This document shows, piece after piece, positions 12,314 through 54,786 of a stretch of DNA of 64,000 nt (positions are counted from its first letter, which is position 1; each line of letters starts with the position of its first letter). A program made the translations under genes and the position numbers. This stretch comes from Rhizobium leguminosarum bv. trifolii WSM1325. Lineage in GTDB: Bacteria > Pseudomonadota > Alphaproteobacteria > Rhizobiales > Rhizobiaceae. The notes under the pieces were generated by a model. It searched no databases, was not told where the DNA came from, and saw nothing but the letters and a program-made list of their open reading frames with translations. The stretch spans positions 248,001-312,000 of the forward strand of contig CP001623.1 in assembly GCA_000023185.1 (NCBI GenBank). The letters are read 5' to 3'.

Positions 12314-14455
12314 TTATGACAATAGCGACGCGCGAAGGTCATCGATCAGATCGCGTTCGAACTTTGTAAGATCGACCCCCCGGAGGTCCATCCGTTTGAC
12401 TAGCTCAATCGCACTATCCAGCGTGGGATACTCGCGAGCGACGGGAGCAAACCGTATCGCGGTCTCGGGGGGAATGCCATACTCGTCCAGCGCGAAGAGG
12501 CCGCGCTCCATGAAAAGGCTTTCGGCCTTGGCGGCGTAGAACTCGTAGTTTCCGGGTTCGACGCCGATTTTCCTCAAGACATCACCTTGGATGTGCGAGA
12601 TTGCCATTAGGCTCTGCGGGAAGGTGTATCCGACGTATTTTCTGAGAAAGCGCAATGCAAGTTCGACCGCATCGCTAACTGAAGCGTCACGCCTTCGATG
12701 TTCAACGAAGTCGTCGATTACTTCGCGAAGGCTCTTGCTGTTCTCAACCGAATAAAGCTTTGCTTGCAACTGTTTCCCGGAGAAAATCTGGTAACCTTTG
12801 AGGATTTCGGAGTCCAAGTAATCGACAATCAGGTTGCATACCGCCAGCAACTGCGGCGAGTCAGGCACCCCTCGCCAGGCCAGTGGCCTACCAAGCAGTG
12901 ACGTGTCACGCCATATTGCATCATAAATGTCATATTGCTTCTCGATGTGAACTCTGCGGTTTGCCCTGAGGGTTTCCAGGGACAATGGGCTCTCGCGCGT
13001 AACGGACTCCACGCGAGTTTTTGAGGCTGGCGTTAGGTCATCATCTTCGAGGTCCAGCAAGAGTGACATTGGCGTCGTTTCGGATTGAGTGCCGACGGCA
13101 ACCTCGATCACGCAAGTGTCTGGCTCTGGTTGCTCTTCAAGAACGTAAACTCTCCCGACGAAATACCGGCGCATCCGACCGGCTCTCCCCGCAATGTTTC
13201 TAAATGTGAAGTAATCGATGCCCGTGTTTTTGATCCGCTTGTCAAAGATAATGACATTCTCGGCGACGGTGTTCACTCCTTCGATCAACGTCGATGTGCA
13301 AATGAGAAATTTAATGGCCCCGGTTTCGAACGCCTTGACCATGTACTGTTGGAGGGCGCGGGGGATGCTACCGTGATGAATGCCCACGCCTCGGCGCAGC
13401 GCATGCGTTACGATCCATTCTTCAGGATATTCTTTCTCCAGCCACTCGACGGCCGGCCAGGTCAGATCTGTCTCAGGAAGCAAACCTTCCGCCTCAAGAA
13501 GCGTTTCCGCGGCTCTCTTTGCTGAACCTGGCGATTGGCAAAAAATCAAAGTCGGCGAGGTGAGTTCCTCGCAGAGTTCGATCAACTTCTCCTCTCGTTC
13601 ACCACCGTCTCTTGGCAGGCCGTACTGCACGATATCCAGCGCGATCGTCGAGAAATGCGACGGTAGGAACAGAAACTCCCGTTTTGACGCCAGTCCGTTG
13701 ATGCCGTCTACATGGGGACCGATCAGGTAGAATTGAGCCCCGTTGGACGAGAGCTTGTGGAAGCAAAGATTGAGATCGACGGCCCGCTCGATACTCTTCT
13801 CCATCTGTAGGTCGAGCTTGTAGAACTCATCTATCACAAAGAACGACACGTCCTGGAGATCGTCGCGATTCAAAGCGCGTTCCTGGGTAAGGACGAACAC
13901 TGTCGCTTTATCCCGAGACGAGACCTGCGTTGGGTGCGTAACGATCGCGTATCGTGAGCCGAATGTCTCGATAATGCGACGTCTCGTCTCGTCGATCAAG
14001 GCAATCGTCGGGACGATAATTGTAAGGTGTTTGTGATCGCCGGAAGCAATGATTGCATCCACGATAGCACTCTTTCCGACGCTGGTCGTCGCGCTCAATA
14101 CAACGTTTCGTTTTGACCTCAGCTCCCGGTAGATTTGGAGTTGGAGCGTATGGAAAAAGTCGACCTTGCCGATCGCAGGCGTTCGATGTGCTTCAAGCAT
14201 CAACTGCTCTTCGAACGTCGAAACGTCTTTCGAGAGATATGGGATGAGCCCGACCGACCCGACGAGGGACTCGAGGAGTGGCAGCAGACCAGGCGGAAAC
14301 AAGTCCTTTTTTGCCAGGCATCGGATGACCATTTCACGACCAAGGTCATGGGTCCTTTGCGAATTGACGAGCGTGTTGACGGCACCGAGGACCAACACAG
14401 CTTGCTCAGGCCCAAAGCCGGTAGTGAGAAAACTCCTTAGGTCCTCGAGCAGCAA
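12314..14455 (-). CDS. superfamily 2 helicase of a two-gene defence module (AbpB/HamB-like)
   Basis: This 713-residue DEAD-like helicase has motif I as [10 protein letters not shown] (about 121-130), motif II as VIDEFYK (about 207), and late motifs [32 protein letters not shown] and [11 protein letters not shown], a Ski2/Hel308-type arrangement. TTG 14455 is the probable start, with GGAG eight bases before it. It begins 2 bases after the stop of the upstream nuclease gene, so the two are coupled. Length and pairing resemble E. coli AbpB (YfjK) and Hachiman HamB, which act against phages with a DUF1837-type partner. Assignment rests on motifs and layout. Confidence 0.75.
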
Positions 14456-14457
14456 GG

Positions 14458-16083
14458 TCAGTTCTCCAGACTACGTTTGAAATTGTCTGCGAGTTGAACC
14501 GAGTCGTAGATCGGGACCAGGAAAACATGCACCCGTATGTCGGTCAACTTGGATGAGAGCTTGCTCTTTAGCTCTTGGTAGCTATCGGCGACCTCGGCTT
14601 TCAGTTTCTCTACGTAGTCGGCTGCGAAGCCGGCCTCTAACACCGAGCTGTCGTAGGCCACAAGAACCGGGATGTTCAAGATGCTTACGATGTCGTCAAG
14701 TTTGGCAAATTCTTGGAAGACCTTCGTTAGGGTCGTCTCCTTTAGATACTGCGGTTCGCGGAACTGAATAATCAGATCGCGTTCCTTTCGCAGGAAATCT
14801 TGGTGCACAAGAGCGTCTAGCTCGGAAGAAAGGAGCGTCGTCACCGCGTCCCAGTTATCTGAGACGGTTATCCTGGCGTGACCCAACCAGAGTTGGTCAC
14901 CGGCTGGATCGAAGACGACGTGCCCATTCATACAATCCGATTGGTCGGGGGACACGCTGTGCAATTTGCAAAGCGTCGGTTCACTGGAGTAGTGATGTCG
15001 GAGGATTGCGTGGAGCATGGCTTGAGACAGAAGGTCCTCATAGTCAATGTTCTTGTCCTTGAGGGCCTGGGACGTCTTCGCAAGTAGCTCGCGCGCTTGG
15101 AGGTGGTTACATTGCGCAAGCATTCGGGGCGGCAAAATCAACTCGGGGATCCACCCAGCGAGGTATTTCGCGAGTTCCAGATTTCTCCATTCCCCGCCAT
15201 CGAACTCGGCATCGTAAGAGGCGAGACTACGGCGAATTGTAGATTCTTGGACGTCATGAAGCGCGGCGAAGAAGTTTGTGGTTTGGACTTGGTAGACCTT
15301 CATGAACGTTCGATTCAGTCTTCTGGCATCCCTAATGGTCTCGTCCCACCATCCCTTCATCGCCTGTTTCGAGATCGCCTTCTTCGCAGGGTGATCCACC
15401 ATCGATACGTCGCCGGCGTTTCGGGCAATCGTGACAAGCCCTTCATAGATCTTCGCGGAAGCGGAAGCGAATATCGCTTCGCCCTCGCTTTCGAATAAGC
15501 GATGTATTCGATTGATGTTCTTTTGCTGGACGGCCTCCTTTTCGCCAGGGACTTGCCAAAGGCAAGCTTGAACCCACTCGGGCACCGATTTCCCATTGGG
15601 AGACGTCACCCCCCTTAGTTTGTTCGAGATCTGGGTGCCAAGCTTGGTAAGCGCATCCACAACATGTGGCTGAAAACGACGGTCACGAGGAGTTTTTAGT
15701 GGTCGGAGTGTGTGATTGACGTCGCGTATGCTAATGAAGCGGAAGAGGGCATCGACCGGGAACTTATCGGTTCCCAGCGATATCTCTACAAGCGACGTGC
15801 CAACCCGCTTTGCTCTGCGCTCGCAAATCTCCGTCAGGTTCCAATTGCTTTCCCCATCCGTGATCTTGACTTGGACATATTCCGTGACATCCGCCCCGTT
15901 TCGAAGCCATCTCAAGGCAATATCGTCGCCGGTCTCGCATTCGACCTGCAGCAATGCCGGATCCGACAGCATATCCAAAAGGAACGAGGCCGCGACATGA
16001 TCCTGGAATGTAAAGCCTTGGCGGGCTTTGACACCTCCGGCGTCGGACGCGGCATATGGATCTACCAGAGGCGTAATGTTCAT
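14458..16083 (-). CDS. nuclease-like partner of the helicase (DUF4297/DUF1837-like, AbpA/HamA-like)
   Basis: The N-terminal part (GGVKARQGFTFQDHVAASFL, then ETGDDIALRW and EYVQVK) has the E...D...QVK spacing of a PD-(D/E)XK nuclease fold of the DUF4297 type. The C-terminal part (ILNIPVLVAYDSSVL through DIRVHVFLVPIYDSVQLADN) resembles DUF1837/HamA. ATG 16083 gives 541 residues, near the 538 or so of E. coli AbpA; a TTG at 16131 would add 16. The gene is immediately upstream of the helicase and forms an operon with it. I infer an anti-phage system in which this protein cuts nucleic acid and the helicase senses or loads it. Confidence 0.65.
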   Translation of the reverse strand: MNITPLVDPYAASDAGGVKARQGFTFQDHVAASFLLDMLSDPALLQVECETGDDIALRWLRNGADVTEYVQVKITDGESNWNLTEICERRAKRVGTSLVEISLGTDKFPVDALFRFISIRDVNHTLRPLKTPRDRRFQPHVVDALTKLGTQISNKLRGVTSPNGKSVPEWVQACLWQVPGEKEAVQQKNINRIHRLFESEGEAIFASASAKIYEGLVTIARNAGDVSMVDHPAKKAISKQAMKGWWDETIRDARRLNRTFMKVYQVQTTNFFAALHDVQESTIRRSLASYDAEFDGGEWRNLELAKYLAGWIPELILPPRMLAQCNHLQARELLAKTSQALKDKNIDYEDLLSQAMLHAILRHHYSSEPTLCKLHSVSPDQSDCMNGHVVFDPAGDQLWLGHARITVSDNWDAVTTLLSSELDALVHQDFLRKERDLIIQFREPQYLKETTLTKVFQEFAKLDDIVSILNIPVLVAYDSSVLEAGFAADYVEKLKAEVADSYQELKSKLSSKLTDIRVHVFLVPIYDSVQLADNFKRSLEN

Positions 16084-16544
16084 CGAAAAATTGCAGGCTC
16101 CACTTGCAAACAAGATGAGCGTTGTTCGCAAACGTCTCGTTAACGGCGGCCTCTAAGCCTCAACTTTCGATTGCTTTTCGCGTCATCGATGGCGGGCGGT
16201 GAATTTCTCGAGCCGAGCGCTTGCAGACGGGGGCCTCTGATGACCGCCGTTGGCTCGAAACCGCCATCATCTGTGTTGGCTCGAATGCCGGCTTTCAGTG
16301 AACTGAAACGTAGTGGCTTCGACCCGTCATAGGGACGGAAGCTGCATTCTCCAGATTTCCTGACAATGGCTGCTATCGCAACTTGGATCTTGTAAGCTGA
16401 CAGTTTGCTCTCGGCCCCAAATTGGTCGTTCCTCCCCGCCGGGCGATGTTACCAGGATGTGCAATCTGAAATGAGCCCCCTCTGTGAGCAGTTGGGTGTG
16501 GGCTCGGATTTCATCAAGACGCCCAACTCGAACCTGCACTTAAT
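16084..16544. other. intergenic region with short direct repeats
   Basis: No convincing gene is visible in these 460 bases. The decamer TTGGCTCGAA occurs twice about 28 bases apart (near 16250 and 16279). A 70-codon reverse frame lacks recognisable features. The stretch probably holds the promoter of the defence genes and a junction between accessory segments. Confidence 0.4.
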
Positions 16545-17168: not shown

Positions 17169-17492
17169 CGCACGAATGAACAAGGTCAGGCTGCGATCGT
17201 CAAGAAGACGCTCAATTGTGACACCGTATTCGAACTGGATCGTTCTTCACGGCATCTCTGCCGGCTTGTCCAGCCCTCGAAGCTTACTATCTCTGGTGTA
17301 ACCCCAACTGGAGCATCGCCATGGATCGAAACGCGGCCGAAATGCTGTCGGAATTCTATATCAAATTCTTCCGCCGGACCGCGATGAAACGTGTGCATCG
17401 GATGCAACAACATGTCCGTGCTGTCGAAGGTTACGTCCGGCCTCGAGCATGGATGATGATGGCTGCGGGACCTGCGACGAATGCCTGGCACC

Positions 17493-17806
17493 ATGACCGC
17501 CGGCGGCAAAACTCTTCCATCAATCCAGGCGACGTTCGACGACGCGCTAGCGAAATTGCCGGACGGCTATGTCGATGGACATTTTGGTGATCGACCATGG
17601 GGCGTGACCGTTAAGCGGTCGGAGGATGGCATACGAACCTGGCTGTATGGCGAGGAGCTTAGCGGAACCGATATTGTCAGCTTCAACCTTTATCGATTGG
17701 CTGGATCGGGGTCGATCCTGAAGCCGTGCGAAATGTCTTCCGCCAAGGTGTCGAATTCGTTCTCGGTTTCGAGCCTAGCGCGCGGAGAAAGCCGTTGCGA
17801 CCATAG
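17493..17806 (+). pseudogene. small hypothetical protein gene, probably frameshifted
   Basis: From ATG 17493 the frame reads about 85 residues of protein-like sequence (PDGYVDGHFGDRPWGVTVKR, then LSGTDIVSFNLYRLAGSGSI and LKPCEMSSAKV). Near 17750 this frame runs into low-quality sequence, while a neighbouring frame continues with EFVLGFEPSARRKPLRP and stops at 17806. That pattern suggests a one- or two-base shift in a gene of about 104 codons. I do not recognise the family. Confidence 0.45.
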
Positions 17807-17911
17807 TGTCCAAATAATAAGCACAGAATTCATGTTGCATTGCAGCAAGCGCATGGCTGCACTGCGATCTAAGCGCTGGCGATCAGGGCAACCTCTGATA
17901 TCTTCGGCTCA

Positions 17912-18070
17912 ACGAAGCAATGCACCTCCTCCCGCAGAGCTTCGTGGTTTCAGGCGACCCACTCCTCCTCCCAAGGGGAGCCTGACGGAACAGCGGCACT
18001 CCTCCTCCCAGCCGTTGTCCAATCTTTTGGAAAAGCCTGCCGCACCTCCTCCCGCGGCGGGCTTTTTCAT
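17912..18070 (+). ncRNA. candidate small RNA with four anti-Shine-Dalgarno hairpins and terminator
   Basis: Four successive stem-loops each display CCTCCTCCC in the loop (17925-17933, 17964-17972, 18001-18009, 18045-18053). Stems are ACGAAGC/GCTTCGT (17912-17945), TCAGGC/GCCTGA (17950-17985), ACAGCGGC/GCCGTTGT (17990-18018) and GCCTGCCGC/GCGGCGGGC (18035-18062). The last is followed by TTTTT and is a rho-independent terminator that fixes the strand. Loops of this sequence are complementary to ribosome-binding sites and are the hallmark of the alphaproteobacterial alpha-r14 or 'cuckoo' RNA family. Whether this is one RNA or two, and its promoter, cannot be decided here. Confidence 0.75.
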
Positions 18071-18091
18071 TTTCCGAAACAAGTCCGGAAT

Positions 18092-18869
18092 TCAAGCGTC
18101 AAAGCAGACTGCCCTGTTCCACCGGTTCGCCGGATTTGGACACGATTGTGGACCCGTATGTTCGCGGGACGAGATGATGAGCGCATCATTCGGTAACGGA
18201 CGGGCCAGCTCCTTGGCTTCTTCCCATGGCGCCCGCATCCAGGTGTCGGTCTCTTCTTCCGTCAGTAATAGGACCGGCATGGCCTTTTCATGGATTGGCT
18301 TCACCAGGTCGTTGGGATCCGTGGTCAAAAACCCATAAAGATCGTCGATGCTCAGGCCGTCCCTGACCTTTCGGACACTCTGCCATTGCGGCACATGGAT
18401 GCCAGCAAAGAACATCAGCGGCTTACTTTCATCGCGAGCGAACCAGGCGTTCGGCACATTGCCGCCTTGCTGCTGGCTGGCCGGATCCGGCTCGGCGAAA
18501 CTGGTGACCGGGACGAGGCATCTGTTTTCGACGCCGAACCATCGCTTCCAGTGCGGAAAACTGAGCTTGCGCACATTGGTCGTGCCGCGATCAGCCTCCA
18601 TGCGGACCAGTTCTTCGAGATCGAATGCCTTGCCTTTCGCCACAAGTTTCTCGGCCTTGGCTTTGGCCGCTCTCAAGTGCGAAGCGCGGCGAGGGCAGTC
18701 CCCAGCGCGCATGGACCAGTTGCTTCTTTCCGTCGGCGGTGTTGCGGACGATCGGCCCCATCTGATCGGGGTTCATCTGGTAGGCGGGCATCAGGTTGAT
18801 CAGGCTTTCGGCGTCCTGGGCCCATTTGGCGACCCAGTCCTTGTCTTCCATGCGATATAGGTTGCACAT
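18092..18869 (-). pseudogene. SRAP-domain (SOS response-associated peptidase) gene, frameshifted
   Basis: The reverse frame starts MCNLYRMEDKDWV, with the catalytic Cys2 of SRAP/YedK proteins, and runs through the conserved ARWGLPSPRFAL. Near 18670 it shifts frame and continues as KAKAEKLVAKGKAFDLEELV, then NRCLVPVTSFAEPD and KPLMFFAGIH, down to a stop at 18092. SRAP proteins crosslink to abasic sites in single-stranded DNA to shield them. The frame break disconnects the catalytic N-terminus from the rest, so the gene is probably dead unless the break is a sequencing error. Confidence 0.8.
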
Positions 18870-18932: not shown

Positions 18933-20010
18933 CTAGTCGAGCCGGAAGACGTCGGCATTGTCCTGCCGTTCGCGCAAGCCCTTGTAGGATGGATGGCGAA
19001 GTTTCCCGTCCGTTGTCCAGGCGCCAAACTCGATCTCGGCGATCAGCGTCGGCTGGACCCAGATGACGTCGGCACTTCCGGAATAGGGCAGGGGCGGCTG
19101 CTTTCGCTTTCATCGCAGCGTGTCCAGCATCTTCCGCAACCTGATGATTTCGGCTTGCCTGAAGCCCGTGCCGACGCTTCCGACGTGGACGAGGTCGGCA
19201 CCGCGGTAGGCGGCAAGCACCAACGAGCCGAAGCCGGCAGGGGACGCTGACGACTTCTCATAACCGACAATGAAGAATGCCTCGCTCTGGACGCATTTGA
19301 CTTTCACCTCCGGCCGGAACGATAAGGCCGGTCGAGGTGCTTGCCGACGATGCCTTCCAGGCCGAGACGGCAGATATGCTCCAGCAGGACGGCTGGTCCG
19401 GCATCGAGTGTTTCCGATAGCCTGACGGCGCCGACCTGGTCATTCCCTGGGGCGTTTAACGTGTCCTCGAGAAGGTGTCGGCGCGAACGGTATTCGACAC
19501 CGCGCAGATCGTGCCCGTCCAGATAGATAAGATCGAAAGCATAAAGGATGGCGTTAGAGGGCTGGTTGCCAGCTTGTTTGCCGGATGCGCGCAGCGATTG
19601 CTGCAGCAGCCCAAAATCCGGCCGCCCCTCTTCGTCGAGCACGACCGCCTCGCCGTCGATGATCATCGTCGCCGGCCCGAGCGCTCGGGCGGCCTGCTCT
19701 ATCGCCGGAAACCGATGCGTCCAGTCAAGCCGCCACGCGTGAGGATCCGGATCCCTTGCGGCTCGATATGAACGGCAAGGCGATAGCCATCCCATTTCAG
19801 TTCCCAGCTCCACTCGCTTCCCCTTGGGGGATGGGACTTCAATTGCGCCAGCGCGGGCTCGACGCGCTCGGGCATGGGATCGAACAGCAGCTGTGGTTGG
19901 GCTGGATTGCGCTTGCCTGTGACGATACCGACTTGTCCCCGCAATTCACACAAAGGGATTAGCGCTCGCAAACGCTCGGAAAAAAATCCACAGGTAGCTA
20001 TTGGGCTCAT
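18933..20010 (-). pseudogene. ATP-dependent DNA ligase (LigD ligase-domain type), multiply frameshifted
   Basis: Reverse-strand fragments in different frames line up into one LigD-like ligase: LLFDPMPERVEPALAQLK and the nucleotidyl-transfer motif WSWELKWDGYRLAVHI (K is the adenylated lysine), then IIDGEAVVLDEEGRPDFGLL, AFDLIYLDGHDL, GLEGIVGKHLDRPYRSGR, KVKCVQSEAFFIVGYEKS, and an end reading GAWTTDGKLRHPSYKGLR with a stop at 18933-18935. At least three frame breaks are needed to join them. Such ligases work in Ku-dependent end joining; no ku gene is seen nearby. Confidence 0.85.
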
Positions 20011-21269: not shown

Positions 21270-21578
21270 GCTTGGATGGCAGTTGCTCGCAATTCTCGAT
21301 GGTGGTGGATGGAATATCGTGGCGGGTGGGAACGAGCGTCTGACGGCTTAGGAAATAGCCCGCGTTAGGGAATTGAAATTCGGCATGTGCAGCGACGCCT
21401 TCGCTTTGGCGAGGAGTCCCCTTCCGGCGCGCAAAGCGAAGGTCCGCGCAACGGCTGGATTTGCAAGCTATGGAGAGAAATCATGTCGGAAAATCCGCAT
21501 ATGGCCGATATTTGAACATGAATTACCAGGGAAAACAAAGCGTGTTGCAATCTCTGCACAGAAAGCGGATAATTGGAC
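21270..21578. other. intergenic region upstream of the AbiE operon
   Basis: About 310 bases with no recognisable gene. It must hold the promoter of the toxin-antitoxin operon that follows; AbiEi antitoxins usually bind inverted repeats here, but I could not pick a convincing pair by eye. Confidence 0.35.
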
Positions 21579-22406
21579 ATGATTTACGATAAACGGGCCG
21601 TGCTTTCCGCCTATACATCAAACTTGCTCTCCCAGGGGAGGGTGGTTTTTGATGGCCGAGAGGCGATCGAAGCGCTGGGCATCAATCGTGGCGCGTTCCT
21701 GGACTCAGCCGAGCGTTTGCAGCGTCGAAAACTACTCCTCAACCCGCGCCACGACTTCTATATCGTGGTCCCTCCACAATTCATGTCATTGGGCGCTCCG
21801 CCACCAACCTGGTACATTGACGCGCTGATGCGCCATGAGGGGAATTCCTATTACGTCGGTCTGCTTAAGGCTGCCGAACTGCACGGTGCCACGCATCAGG
21901 CCGTGATGGAGTTTCAAGTCGTGGCGGCCAAACGGCTCCCCAAGATCAAGGCCGGTCGCAACCGCTTCGTCTTCTACTACCGAAAGGATATGGAGACCGT
22001 CGCCGCGGGCGTTGTTGACAAGAAAACCGAGACGGGTTCGATGAGAGTGTCGTCACCAGCTCTCACAGCGCTCGACATTCTGCGGTATTCTCATGGCGCC
22101 GGCGGTCTTGATAACATCTTCACTGTCCTCAGGGATATCGCGCCGCAGATTGATTTCGAAAGCCTGACCAACCTGTCGCGCGTCACCGAACGGCCGGTCG
22201 TGCAGCGCCTCGGCTACCTTCTCGACAGGCTGGGTCACGGCCCACGCCTGGCGTCGATGCGTACCGCCTTGGAAGACCGCGGCAACCTGCCCTGGACGGA
22301 GCTGGACCGCAAAGAAGCCGGCGATCCCGACTTTTCTACTGAAGTGCTCGAGCGCGACCCGCGTTGGCGGGTCATCGTCCGCCGCTATCCGGAGGCCGAT
22401 GAATGA
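21579..22406 (+). CDS. type IV toxin-antitoxin system antitoxin, AbiEi family
   Basis: This protein of about 275 residues has an N-terminal winged helix (YTSNLLSQGRVVFDGREAIE, LGINRGAFLDSAERLQRR), then the AbiEi core YYVGLLKAAELHGATHQAVM and VVAAKRLPKIKAGRNRFVFY, and the SPALTALDILRYSHGAGGLD block. AbiEi represses its own operon and offsets the AbiEii nucleotidyltransferase. ATG 21579 was chosen; a TTG at 21573 is possible. It overlaps the toxin gene by 4 bases. Confidence 0.87.
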   Translation: MIYDKRAVLSAYTSNLLSQGRVVFDGREAIEALGINRGAFLDSAERLQRRKLLLNPRHDFYIVVPPQFMSLGAPPPTWYIDALMRHEGNSYYVGLLKAAELHGATHQAVMEFQVVAAKRLPKIKAGRNRFVFYYRKDMETVAAGVVDKKTETGSMRVSSPALTALDILRYSHGAGGLDNIFTVLRDIAPQIDFESLTNLSRVTERPVVQRLGYLLDRLGHGPRLASMRTALEDRGNLPWTELDRKEAGDPDFSTEVLERDPRWRVIVRRYPEADE

Positions 22407-23170
22407 TACCAGCTCAGAATTTTGTCGCGTGGGGCAATGTCGCGCCTTGGGCCGATCAACGTCAGATCGAACAGGATCTGATTATCAGCCGGGCGGTGGT
22501 CGCGATATTCACCGACCCCTTCTTGCGCGAAGCCTTGAGGTTTCGCGGCGGCACAGCCCTCAACAAACTGCACTTCCCGGCTCCGCTGCGCCACTCGGAA
22601 GACATTGATCTCATGCGCACAGCGGTCGGGCCGATCGGTCCGGTCCTGGACGCCTTGCGTGTCGTTCTCGAGCCGTGGCTTGGACACGGTCAGTACGAGT
22701 CAAGTCCGGTCGCACCGAAGTTGAAATTCCGGATTGAGGCCGAGGACGGCGGCGGCGTCCCCATCCGCCTCAAGGTCGAAACCAACATCAGCGAGATCGA
22801 AGCGTATGATCCGCCGATCGACTTGCCGTTTGGCGTGGCCAATCCATGGTTCACCGGGAATGCGTCCGTCCCGACATTCTCCCGTGAGGAAATGTTGGCC
22901 ACCAAGTTGCGCGCGCTGCTGCAGCGGGAGAAGGGTCGCGATCTCTGTGACCTGGCGCATGGCCTGGAGACGTTTGAGGGCCTGAATGTGGAGAAAGTGG
23001 CTGATTATTTTGGCCGCTACGTCGCACTTTCGGGCCAGATCATCACGCGGGCACAGGCTGAGCAACGGATGTTCGCGAAGCTTGCCCGGCCGCGCTTTCT
23101 GACCGACATGCAGCCACTGCTTCCGACACAGCAGGCCGAAGCGCTGACCGACCAAACGACCCTCCAGTAA
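22403..23170 (+). CDS. nucleotidyltransferase AbiEii toxin, prematurely stopped
   Basis: The AbiEii/AbiGii fold is clear: FRGGTALNKLHF with the GG-T motif, then HSEDIDLMRT, whose two Asp residues bind metal, and a later EEMLATKLRALLQREKGRDL. AbiEii toxins block growth by nucleotidylating an RNA or tRNA target and act in phage abortive infection. At 23168 a TAA stops the frame, but the same frame stays open for 30 more codons to 23263 and reads AAFIERLPGDTWLRTAEMRR, which looks like the normal end of the family. A nonsense change has probably clipped the last 30 or so residues; activity is uncertain. Confidence 0.85.
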   Translation: MIPAQNFVAWGNVAPWADQRQIEQDLIISRAVVAIFTDPFLREALRFRGGTALNKLHFPAPLRHSEDIDLMRTAVGPIGPVLDALRVVLEPWLGHGQYESSPVAPKLKFRIEAEDGGGVPIRLKVETNISEIEAYDPPIDLPFGVANPWFTGNASVPTFSREEMLATKLRALLQREKGRDLCDLAHGLETFEGLNVEKVADYFGRYVALSGQIITRAQAEQRMFAKLARPRFLTDMQPLLPTQQAEALTDQTTLQ

Positions 23171-53313: not shown

Positions 53314-54786
53314 TCAAATCGCGGCTGCTAAAGCGTCGTCGTGAAGCACCGCGCTATAATGGGCGTCGATTGCCTGCTCGATGTAGGAGCCGCCATAAGC
53401 GCCCGTTGCTCGAACACCTCGGCGTGCGAGCTTATTCGTAGGGCCATTGCCGATCTGAGAACAAATCAGCAAATCTAAGCCTTCGAGCGCATTGATGATA
53501 CTGTTGAGACTAGCCTCCTCCCCCCATCCACCAAGGCAGTACGGGTCGATCTTCAGGTGACCTATCAATCCGAGGCCTTTTTTACAGACCGAGAAAATCT
53601 GTATTTCCTGCGCATGACCGAAATGTTCATTGACCCGGCCTCCACCATTGGTGGTTACAGCAATAAGGAGAAGTTCGTCAGATGGAGCTGAGACCGGTAT
53701 GGCCGCGCCCCTTGCTTCCAATGTTTGGCCGCGTCGCTCGCGCTCGATCAACTTGCGATAGGCATGGCGCTTGCCACTGTCGTTGGTCGCTTCAGCTGGG
53801 AGTTGGGAAATCGTGAATTCGTGTGCGCGATCATCACTGAGCAGACCGACTGCATCGGAACGGCACTGACGGCAATGGCGCATCACCTTCGTGTTGCCTT
53901 CAAGCCGGTCCCGAAGCGCGATTAACTCAGAAGGGGTAGGGCAACGCTGACCGTTCAGACCATATAGAGTACCATTTGAAGGCTCTGAGATCAGGGGCAT
54001 TACGTTATGCATAAACGCGCCCCTGTCCTTGACCCACTTGTTAACCTCGATGAGATGCTCGTCGTTGACGCCCGGGATCATCACCGAATTGACCTTGGTG
54101 AGTATGCCGCGTTCTGTCAGCATTTCGAGCCCCAACATTTGCCTCTCATGGAGGATCCTGGACGCGTCGATACCGTTGTAGCGGCGGCCATCATAGAATA
54201 TCCAGGGGTAGATCTCGGTCCCGATCTTCGGATCTACCATGTTGATGGTGATTGTAACGTGCCCGACATTCATGTCGACAAGCTCGTCGACATGTTCAGG
54301 GAGGGCGAGGCCATTGGTTGAGATGCAAAGCTTGACGTCGGTGATTTCGCGGGCGATCGGTATGAGGGTCGCTTTTGTCTTCCTCCAATCATAGCAGGCA
54401 TCGCCTGGCCCGGCGATGCCGACCACTGAGAGCTGCGGCACTTCGTTTGCAACCGCAATGGCCCTGCGCAGCGCCTGGTCGGGAGTGAGCCTATGTGATG
54501 CTACTCCTGGTCTGCTTTCGTTTGCGCAGTCATATTTTCGATTGCAGTAATTGCATTGGATGTTGCAGGCTGGTGCCACCGCGAGATGCATCCGCGCGAA
54601 ATAAAGATGCGCTTCCCGCGAGAAGCACGGGTGGTCTTTGATCTTTTCACGGATCGCTGGAGCCAGAGCATCCGGCTCGGAACTGCCACGGGACGAAGGC
54701 GGATAGTCACCGAACGCTGTTGCCTCCGACTCGCATGCGGCAGGTGCTGTGTCGGTGATCCTGAACGTACTCATCCCTCTGGACAT
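53314..54786 (-). CDS. nifB: nitrogenase cofactor biosynthesis radical SAM protein NifB
   Basis: NifB joins iron-sulfur clusters and a carbide to make the FeMo-cofactor core. The radical SAM motif CNIQCNYCNRKYDC follows HLAVAPA; further conserved blocks are GIAGPGDACYD and ISEPSNGTLYGLNGQRCPTP. A NifX-like domain fills the C-terminus (VNEHFGHAQEIQIFSVCKKG). ATG 54786 with GGAG upstream gives 490 residues, normal for rhizobia; the frame is open further to 54924. It lies downstream of nifA and upstream of fdxN. Confidence 0.95.
   Translation of the reverse strand: MSRGMSTFRITDTAPAACESEATAFGDYPPSSRGSSEPDALAPAIREKIKDHPCFSREAHLYFARMHLAVAPACNIQCNYCNRKYDCANESRPGVASHRLTPDQALRRAIAVANEVPQLSVVGIAGPGDACYDWRKTKATLIPIAREITDVKLCISTNGLALPEHVDELVDMNVGHVTITINMVDPKIGTEIYPWIFYDGRRYNGIDASRILHERQMLGLEMLTERGILTKVNSVMIPGVNDEHLIEVNKWVKDRGAFMHNVMPLISEPSNGTLYGLNGQRCPTPSELIALRDRLEGNTKVMRHCRQCRSDAVGLLSDDRAHEFTISQLPAEATNDSGKRHAYRKLIERERRGQTLEARGAAIPVSAPSDELLLIAVTTNGGGRVNEHFGHAQEIQIFSVCKKGLGLIGHLKIDPYCLGGWGEEASLNSIINALEGLDLLICSQIGNGPTNKLARRGVRATGAYGGSYIEQAIDAHYSAVLHDDALAAAI

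Follow-up and report, generated by a model that had tools for sequence, protein, structure and literature searches.

The locus examined here raises the question of why one short motif, CCTCCTCCC, recurs four times within 129 nt (at positions 17925, 17964, 18001 and 18045 of the forward strand) in a 64,000-nt stretch of Rhizobium leguminosarum bv. trifolii WSM1325 (contig CP001623.1, positions 248,001 to 312,000; hereafter the window, with coordinates counted from its first letter), and of what the element that carries these repeats would do. A fifth occurrence, at 53514, brings the total in the window to 5, a number that none of 100 shuffles of the whole window reached (mean 0.50, maximum 3). 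Our analyses indicated a small RNA of about 160 nt at 17910..18070 of the forward strand, with four hairpins and of the alpha-r14 (SmelA099) type; the assignment draws on a match to the Rfam family RF02344, a comparison with SmelA099 of S. meliloti and an alignment of 76 rows, and both ends were placed after those of SmelA099. The RNA is real and conserved but not new, both its family and the four-hairpin form having already been published. As the best explanation of the locus overall, we hold with considerable confidence that this is a four-hairpin RNA of that family directed against ribosome-binding sites, one that would silence mRNAs in the manner of NfeR1.

Fold and family of the four-hairpin RNA

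The first-pass annotation, made from the letters of the DNA alone, had proposed four consecutive hairpins with a shared loop, had read them as a structured alpha-r14/cuckoo-type RNA with anti-Shine-Dalgarno (aSD) loops, and had named RNA folding and a covariance-model search as checks. Both analyses, together with the stem covariation described below, bore the proposal out. Folding of the strand from 17905 to 18072 gave -73.3 kcal/mol (z = -5.66, a value that 0 of 200 shuffles reached), and the predicted structure consists of four hairpins, each with one CCTCCTCCC in its own loop. The ar14 model (RF02344) matched at 17945-18069 with 97.3 bits, compared with a gathering score of 58.8; the match covers model positions 1-123 of 123, spans hairpins 2-4, and is the sole gathering-level Rfam match in the 64 kb.

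All four hairpins lie on the forward strand and were delimited from the fold and the covariation. Hairpin 1 (17912..17945), which falls outside the Rfam match, has the loop ACCTCCTCCC on a predicted stem of 10 pairs (7+3, around a 2x2 internal loop); hairpin 2 (17950..17985) and hairpin 3 (17987..18020) have loops with CACTCCTCCTCCCA on 9 pairs (6+3) and 10 pairs, respectively; and hairpin 4 (18028..18069), again with the loop ACCTCCTCCC, has 16 pairs in a G+C-rich stem followed by TTTTTC. The stem, the U-run and homology suggest that hairpin 4 is terminator-like. The loops had earlier been taken as identical on differing stems: the four stem sequences are indeed unlike and the 9-base core is common to all, but the loops are of two kinds around this core, namely GC-ACCTCCTCCC-GC in hairpins 1 and 4 and CACTCCTCCTCCCA in hairpins 2 and 3.

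Positions 265860-266080 of pR132501 (NC_012848.1, 828,924 bases) are identical to the 221-base query, in keeping with the location of the window in the genome, and sequence comparison places the window RNA, which this plasmid carries, in the four-hairpin branch (RFMSmelA099 type) of the alpha-r14/cuckoo family. RFMSmelA075 and RFMSmelA099 have been described with three and four CCUCCUCCC hairpins, respectively, and were proposed to form a single family in which the number of modules varies; the four-hairpin form has been in print since 2011 (PMC3927594), so that the earlier view of four loops per about 160 bases as an unusually dense array could not be maintained. SmelA099 was detected by sequencing as a transcript of 160 nt (PMC2873474) and has been tabulated with the nodule zones ZII/IZ/ZIII (PMC7143759). 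Its sequence was taken from pSymA (NC_003037, 1328175-1328334, minus strand, coordinates according to the table of PMC2873474), and the window RNA matched it from end to end, the ends of SmelA099 corresponding to about 17910 and about 18070. SmelA099 contains four motifs, the same stem core of hairpin 1 (CGAAGC...GCTTCG) and a near-identical hairpin 4. RFMSmelA099/SmelA099 (smrA6) and the window RNA have in common the length of 160 nt, four hairpins with CTCCTCCC loops, a terminator-like hairpin 4 and a plasmid location; they differ in replicon and species, in stem substitutions and in the bases around loops 2 and 3.

Other members of RF02344, including NfeR1 (Smr14C2/SmelC397) and SmelA075, share with the window RNA the loop core, a terminator-like last hairpin and an LsrB-like promoter box, but NfeR1 and SmelA075 possess three hairpins and the window RNA four. 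The cuckoo-type RNAs CcsR1-4 (RSs0680a-d), from the CIN1 locus of Rhodobacter sphaeroides, also display hairpins with aSD loops, RS0680a having two of them (PMC3927594). These CcsR RNAs are processed out of the ccaF1 transcript (PMC10253847), whereas the rhizobial RNA has an upstream box of its own. AbcR1 and AbcR2 of rhizobia would resemble the window RNA as regards transport and metabolic mRNAs (PMC10746234) but constitute a separate family, the gathering-level Rfam match of the window being to ar14. In the consulted part of an R. etli RNA-seq study (PMC4167512), no ar14 RNA is named.

Conservation of stems, loops and upstream box

Searching contigs for homologues yielded at least 120 stretches, 80 of which were listed, and 75 of these formed the 76-row alignment together with the window; two three-hairpin loci (L046 and L052), one locus at a contig edge (L050), one with loop 4 shortened to CACCTCCCGC (L081) and one with five motifs (L094) were left out. 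On the 76 sequences, 93.8% of the alignment cells were paired, compared with 89.7% in shuffles and 34-48% when the structure was slid along the alignment. Changes on both sides affected 22 pairs (13.2 in shuffles) and 190 cells (64.3 in shuffles), and none of 500 shuffles reached the observed values. Since the shuffles ignore relatedness and the structure was taken from the window's own fold, this covariation is read as support and not as a probability. It was strongest in hairpins 2 and 3: all 9 pairs of helix 2 (86.7% of cells paired) and 7 of the 10 pairs of helix 3 (96.4%) changed on both sides, compared with 2 of 10 in helix 1 (96.5%) and 4 of 16 in helix 4 (94.3%), in which another 8 of the 16 pairs were invariant.

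The loop motif of hairpin 1 was unpaired in 84 of 84 stand-alone folds, and 300 of 304 CTCCTCCC motifs were fully unpaired in the predicted folds of the homologues. Homologues whose stems lose pairing while their loops vary, which the first-pass annotation had regarded as counter-evidence, were thus not what the alignment and the folds displayed, the constancy of loops 1-3 proving nothing in this respect because the search pattern had fixed them. Loop 4 was free in the search and provides the sole test of loop constancy: among the 77 listed loci with more than three hairpins and uncut by a contig end, 75 had CTCCTCCC at the usual spacing, some without its ninth base, the exceptions being L081 and L094; the alignment itself excluded rows in which loop 4 was irregular. 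Four or more motifs were present in 76 of the 80 listed loci; the 40 unlisted stretches included 39 that were long enough, and 37 of them had a fourth CTCCTCCC within 135 nt. In L094 (Rhizobium sp. Root1334), hairpin 3 and the beginning of hairpin 4 are partly duplicated in tandem, which accounts for its five motifs, and L110 contains more than four CTCCTCCC motifs within 240 nt.

Among 11 plasmid homologues, mean identity to the window was 0.937 for the RNA (range 0.925-0.969), 0.859 for the promoter stretch, 0.817 for a 108-aa gene on the upstream side and 0.82 for a gene of the SOS-response-associated peptidase (SRAP) on the downstream side; the means of the flanks are low because three homologues (L193, L195 and L196) do not have those genes, and SRAP, where present, reached 0.84-0.92. 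The RNA stood above both the 108-aa gene and the SRAP stretch in 11 of 11 homologues.

Upstream of the hairpins, an exact sequence match located a TGCA-N6-GCAT box at 17841..17854 of the forward strand, resembling the LsrB site of the NfeR1 promoter, for which a motif of this type has been described (PMC10746234). The exact box was found in 26 of 77 homologous upstream stretches of 120 nt, compared with a mean of 0.2 of 77 in mononucleotide shuffles, and 71 of the 77 had a less strict GCAT/CTG box, a figure that stands without a control. Binding of an LsrB-type regulator at this box may be supposed. A -10-like element, TGATATC (17896..17902, forward strand), was placed by comparison only, at the position where homologues have a GTATRNT-like stretch. 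Judging by the box and the 5' end of SmelA099, transcription would begin immediately upstream of hairpin 1, which would make the four hairpins the primary transcript rather than a read-through of three.

Copies, replicons and neighbouring genes

In the WSM1325 genome (G000, with C1 as the chromosome), eight copies of ar14 scored above the cut-off, three on C1, two on C2 and one each on C3, C5 and C6. The four-hairpin form is present on C2, C3, C5 (with one altered loop) and C6; none was found on C1, the three strong copies of which are all of the three-hairpin kind. A C2 copy at 112604 is degenerate, and at G000:C4:471853-471881 (forward strand; locus L025) the last hairpin with its CCTCCTCCC loop is all that remains, a terminator remnant that probably arose by decay of the same block as in the window. 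A match resembling pRiA4b ORF-3 lies near the L025 remnant, as one does in the window.

Across the genus, ar14 was present in 40 of 40 genomes, WSM1325 included, with 4-9 copies each among the matches listed (E <= 1e-6). The strict hairpin 1-3 pattern of the four-hairpin form, nearly the same as that used for the contig search, was found in 35 of the 40 genomes with up to four copies per genome; it may take in a few three-hairpin RNAs of the L046 kind and misses RNAs with an altered loop. In the 10 low-contig genomes (at most 7 contigs) with a match, 17 of 18 copies among the matches listed were off the chromosome, the chromosome contig being assigned from match positions in the megabase range; the exception was G036:C1, and the low-contig genomes G001 and G026 gave no match to the pattern. 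Three records (L044, L091 and L092) carry the four-hairpin form on a chromosome, and hence it is not a plasmid-only form. Matches were obtained in 497 plasmid records of PLSDB, 114 of which match 80% or more of the query at a single location.

Of 72 loci, a set that includes L046, L050, L052 and four loci of this genome, 35 have a same-strand DUF1127-like gene within 600 nt upstream and none has one on the opposite strand; the stop codon of this gene precedes hairpin 1 by about 165-235 nt. The loci on C3 and C5 match by construction, since the profile was built from four DUF1127 domains of this genome, and the DUF1127 identity of these two genes itself comes from Pfam. A terminator-like hairpin was located between DUF1127 and the RNA box in 26 of 33 loci (7.1 in mononucleotide shuffles); at L044 the terminator match looks spurious, but the DUF1127 match does not. 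At G000:C3:28286-28767 and C5:118949-119435 (forward strand), a DUF1127 gene, a terminator-like hairpin and a four-hairpin RNA follow one another in series on one strand. Nine DUF1127 matches were detected in this genome, on C1 (7), C3 and C5, with none on C2, and the window copy has no DUF1127 neighbour, being one of the 37 loci of the 72 that lack it. The association of DUF1127 with CcsR RNAs has been published as the CIN1 locus (PMC10253847); there the DUF1127 gene (CcaF1) lies upstream, as in these rhizobial loci and unlike at the window copy. We also observed that the chromosomal three-hairpin copy L018 (G000:C1:1696246-1697156, minus strand) is followed by a same-strand DUF1127 gene of 48 aa, the 3' region of which contains a terminator-like hairpin as well as a CTCCTCCC motif; DUF1127 is matched a second time at 1696246-1696350.

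In the window, the RNA is intact between broken genes. On its upstream side lies the remnant of the hypothetical 108-aa gene (17481..17808, forward strand), recognised by a tblastn match over 90 of 108 aa at 17481-17750; no gene is listed there in pR132501, and the remnant is not part of the RNA. A gene of 327 bp is annotated in its place in the plasmid matches H35, H46, H19, H3, H8 and H16. Downstream and convergent with the RNA is the broken SRAP gene (18102..18869, minus strand), identified by tblastn pieces and by SRAP matches on two pieces, the second of which is below the curated cut-off; it is followed by a broken gene for a DNA ligase of the non-homologous end-joining type (LigD; 18936..19917, minus strand), with three tblastn pieces and DNA_ligase_A_M at 19304-19813. 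No gene is listed for either. Of 10 other plasmid matches inspected, 7 (H3, H6, H8, H16, H19, H24 and H46) have a convergent SRAP gene after the RNA, mostly with ligD; SRAP is not annotated beside the RNA in H4, H32 and H2, the last being without annotation there. In H19 and H46, SRAP and ligD stand in a row with ImuA, Y-family polymerase and error-prone polymerase genes. Among the listed genome-contig loci with enough flank, SRAP follows the RNA in 6 of 69 and the 108-aa gene precedes it in 6 of 68; this rarity marks both as local context, and the SRAP-LigD neighbourhood was rejected as the reason for the RNA. A phage origin was likewise rejected, no match being found among 50,697 phage records. 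Elsewhere in the window, a DEAD-box helicase gene adjoins a Hachiman HamA gene at 12314-16131 (minus strand), the HamA protein having an N-terminal Cap4-nuclease match, and an AbiEi/AbiEii type IV toxin-antitoxin pair is located at 21573-23170 (forward strand).

Proposed mode of action and competing explanations

By analogy, the window RNA most likely works like NfeR1, its redundant loops blocking the ribosome-binding sites of many mRNAs. The silencing of ntrB by NfeR1 depends on the aSD loops and is lost when all three are mutated, and two ABC-transporter mRNAs have likewise been reported as confirmed NfeR1 targets in S. meliloti (PMC10746234). For the window RNA, transcription would start at about 17910, driven by a LysR-type regulator such as LsrB during stress or symbiosis, and the RNA would end at hairpin 4. 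Any of the four redundant ACCUCCUCCC loops could then pair with a GGAGG-type ribosome-binding site and block translation, the targets being many mRNAs and many of these serving uptake and metabolism. The extra loops would provide more binding capacity per molecule and not new targets, and plasmid copies would raise the dose beyond that of the chromosomal three-hairpin copies. The loops presumably resemble the 3' tail of 16S rRNA; a pattern for such a tail had 0 matches in this genome, perhaps because the searched sequence does not include rRNA.

Several results weigh against this explanation. Perfect GGGAGGAGG sites number 66 in the genome, 24 of them in ar14 genes or remnants and 42 outside, compared with 89 for the reversed pattern; and of the 42, 9 (21%) are followed at 3-15 nt by the start codon of an open frame with 60 aa or more, compared with 295 of 1680 control positions (17.6%), which is no clear enrichment. 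No promoter was found by an E. coli-type promoter scan. A terminator scan of 17600-18200 also came back empty, its rule admitting loops of 3-8 bases and hairpin 4 having one of 10; the earlier claim that the last stem doubles as a rho-independent terminator therefore retains the stem, the U-run and the homology but not the scan. Furthermore, only one of six copies was reliably detected by Northern blot in S. meliloti (PMC7143759). Because the 9-mer sites are neither clearly enriched before starts nor over-represented, full-length 9-mer pairing is not the rule, and pairing may proceed through shorter stretches. In 7 of the 9 start-preceding sites, a subset without a control, an ATG lies 4-7 nt downstream; the seven candidate products, an AMP-binding enzyme, a GH39 enzyme, an alcohol dehydrogenase, an ABC-transporter ATPase, an ornithine-cyclodeaminase-like protein, a periplasmic binding protein and one without a Pfam match, are leads only.

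The Northern result would also suit a silent plasmid relic, intact in sequence yet untranscribed or without effect, and so would the broken 108-aa gene, SRAP and LigD next to it, as well as the degenerate C2 copy and the C4 remnant, which demonstrate that copies do decay. We regard such a relic as unlikely, given that all four loops and their stems have remained intact beside broken neighbours, that the RNA is better conserved than the genes on both sides in every one of the 11 comparisons, and that its stems covary throughout the family. It is very unlikely, in our judgement, that the loops mainly act as a sponge or decoy, titrating an RNA-binding protein such as DUF1127 or GA-rich small RNAs without any mRNA silencing of their own. 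The repetition of the loops would fit multivalent binding, same-strand DUF1127-like genes stand upstream in about half of the loci, those on the plasmids C3 and C5 included, and the Rhodobacter DUF1127 protein CcaF1 is described as binding RNA and maturing the co-transcribed CcsR RNAs (PMC10253847). Against this, NfeR1 uses the same loops to silence mRNA (PMC10746234), no DUF1127 gene adjoins the window copy, and the DUF1127 proteins of A. tumefaciens act via the sensor kinase PhoR (PMC12501420).

That the repeats are part of a protein has next to no probability in our view. An ATG frame of 285 aa (17481-18338, forward strand) does stay open across the RNA, but it starts in the remnant of the 108-aa gene and then crosses the spacer, and no gene is listed there; hairpin spacing varies by single bases among the homologues, which leaves them no common reading frame, and the base pairs covary. 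This coding frame was rejected on these grounds.

With the four-hairpin anti-ribosome-binding-site RNA as the preferred explanation, the additions to the published family are modest: the bias of the four-hairpin form away from the chromosome, the frequent DUF1127 gene upstream, and an RNA intact between broken neighbours. The useful part is the layout: low-contig Rhizobium genomes hold the four-hairpin form almost exclusively outside the chromosome, and about half of the loci examined have DUF1127. The 2023 paper on NfeR1 leaves open, in the part consulted, whether some protein helps NfeR1 to pair independently of Hfq, and which one (PMC10746234). For such a partner, the DUF1127 neighbourhood suggests a candidate that can be tested, the link between DUF1127 and CcsR RNAs itself having already been published (PMC10253847). 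A bolder picture, which we advance as a speculation that is rather improbable as a whole, is that a large number of rhizobial plasmids each bring along a four-site anti-Shine-Dalgarno RNA, frequently next to a DUF1127 gene that has a terminator of its own. The plasmid load would then set the dose of a cell-wide brake on the translation of uptake genes, DUF1127 proteins would supply the partner so far missing for the Hfq-independent alpha-r14 RNAs, and the orphan copy in the window would use one encoded on another replicon.
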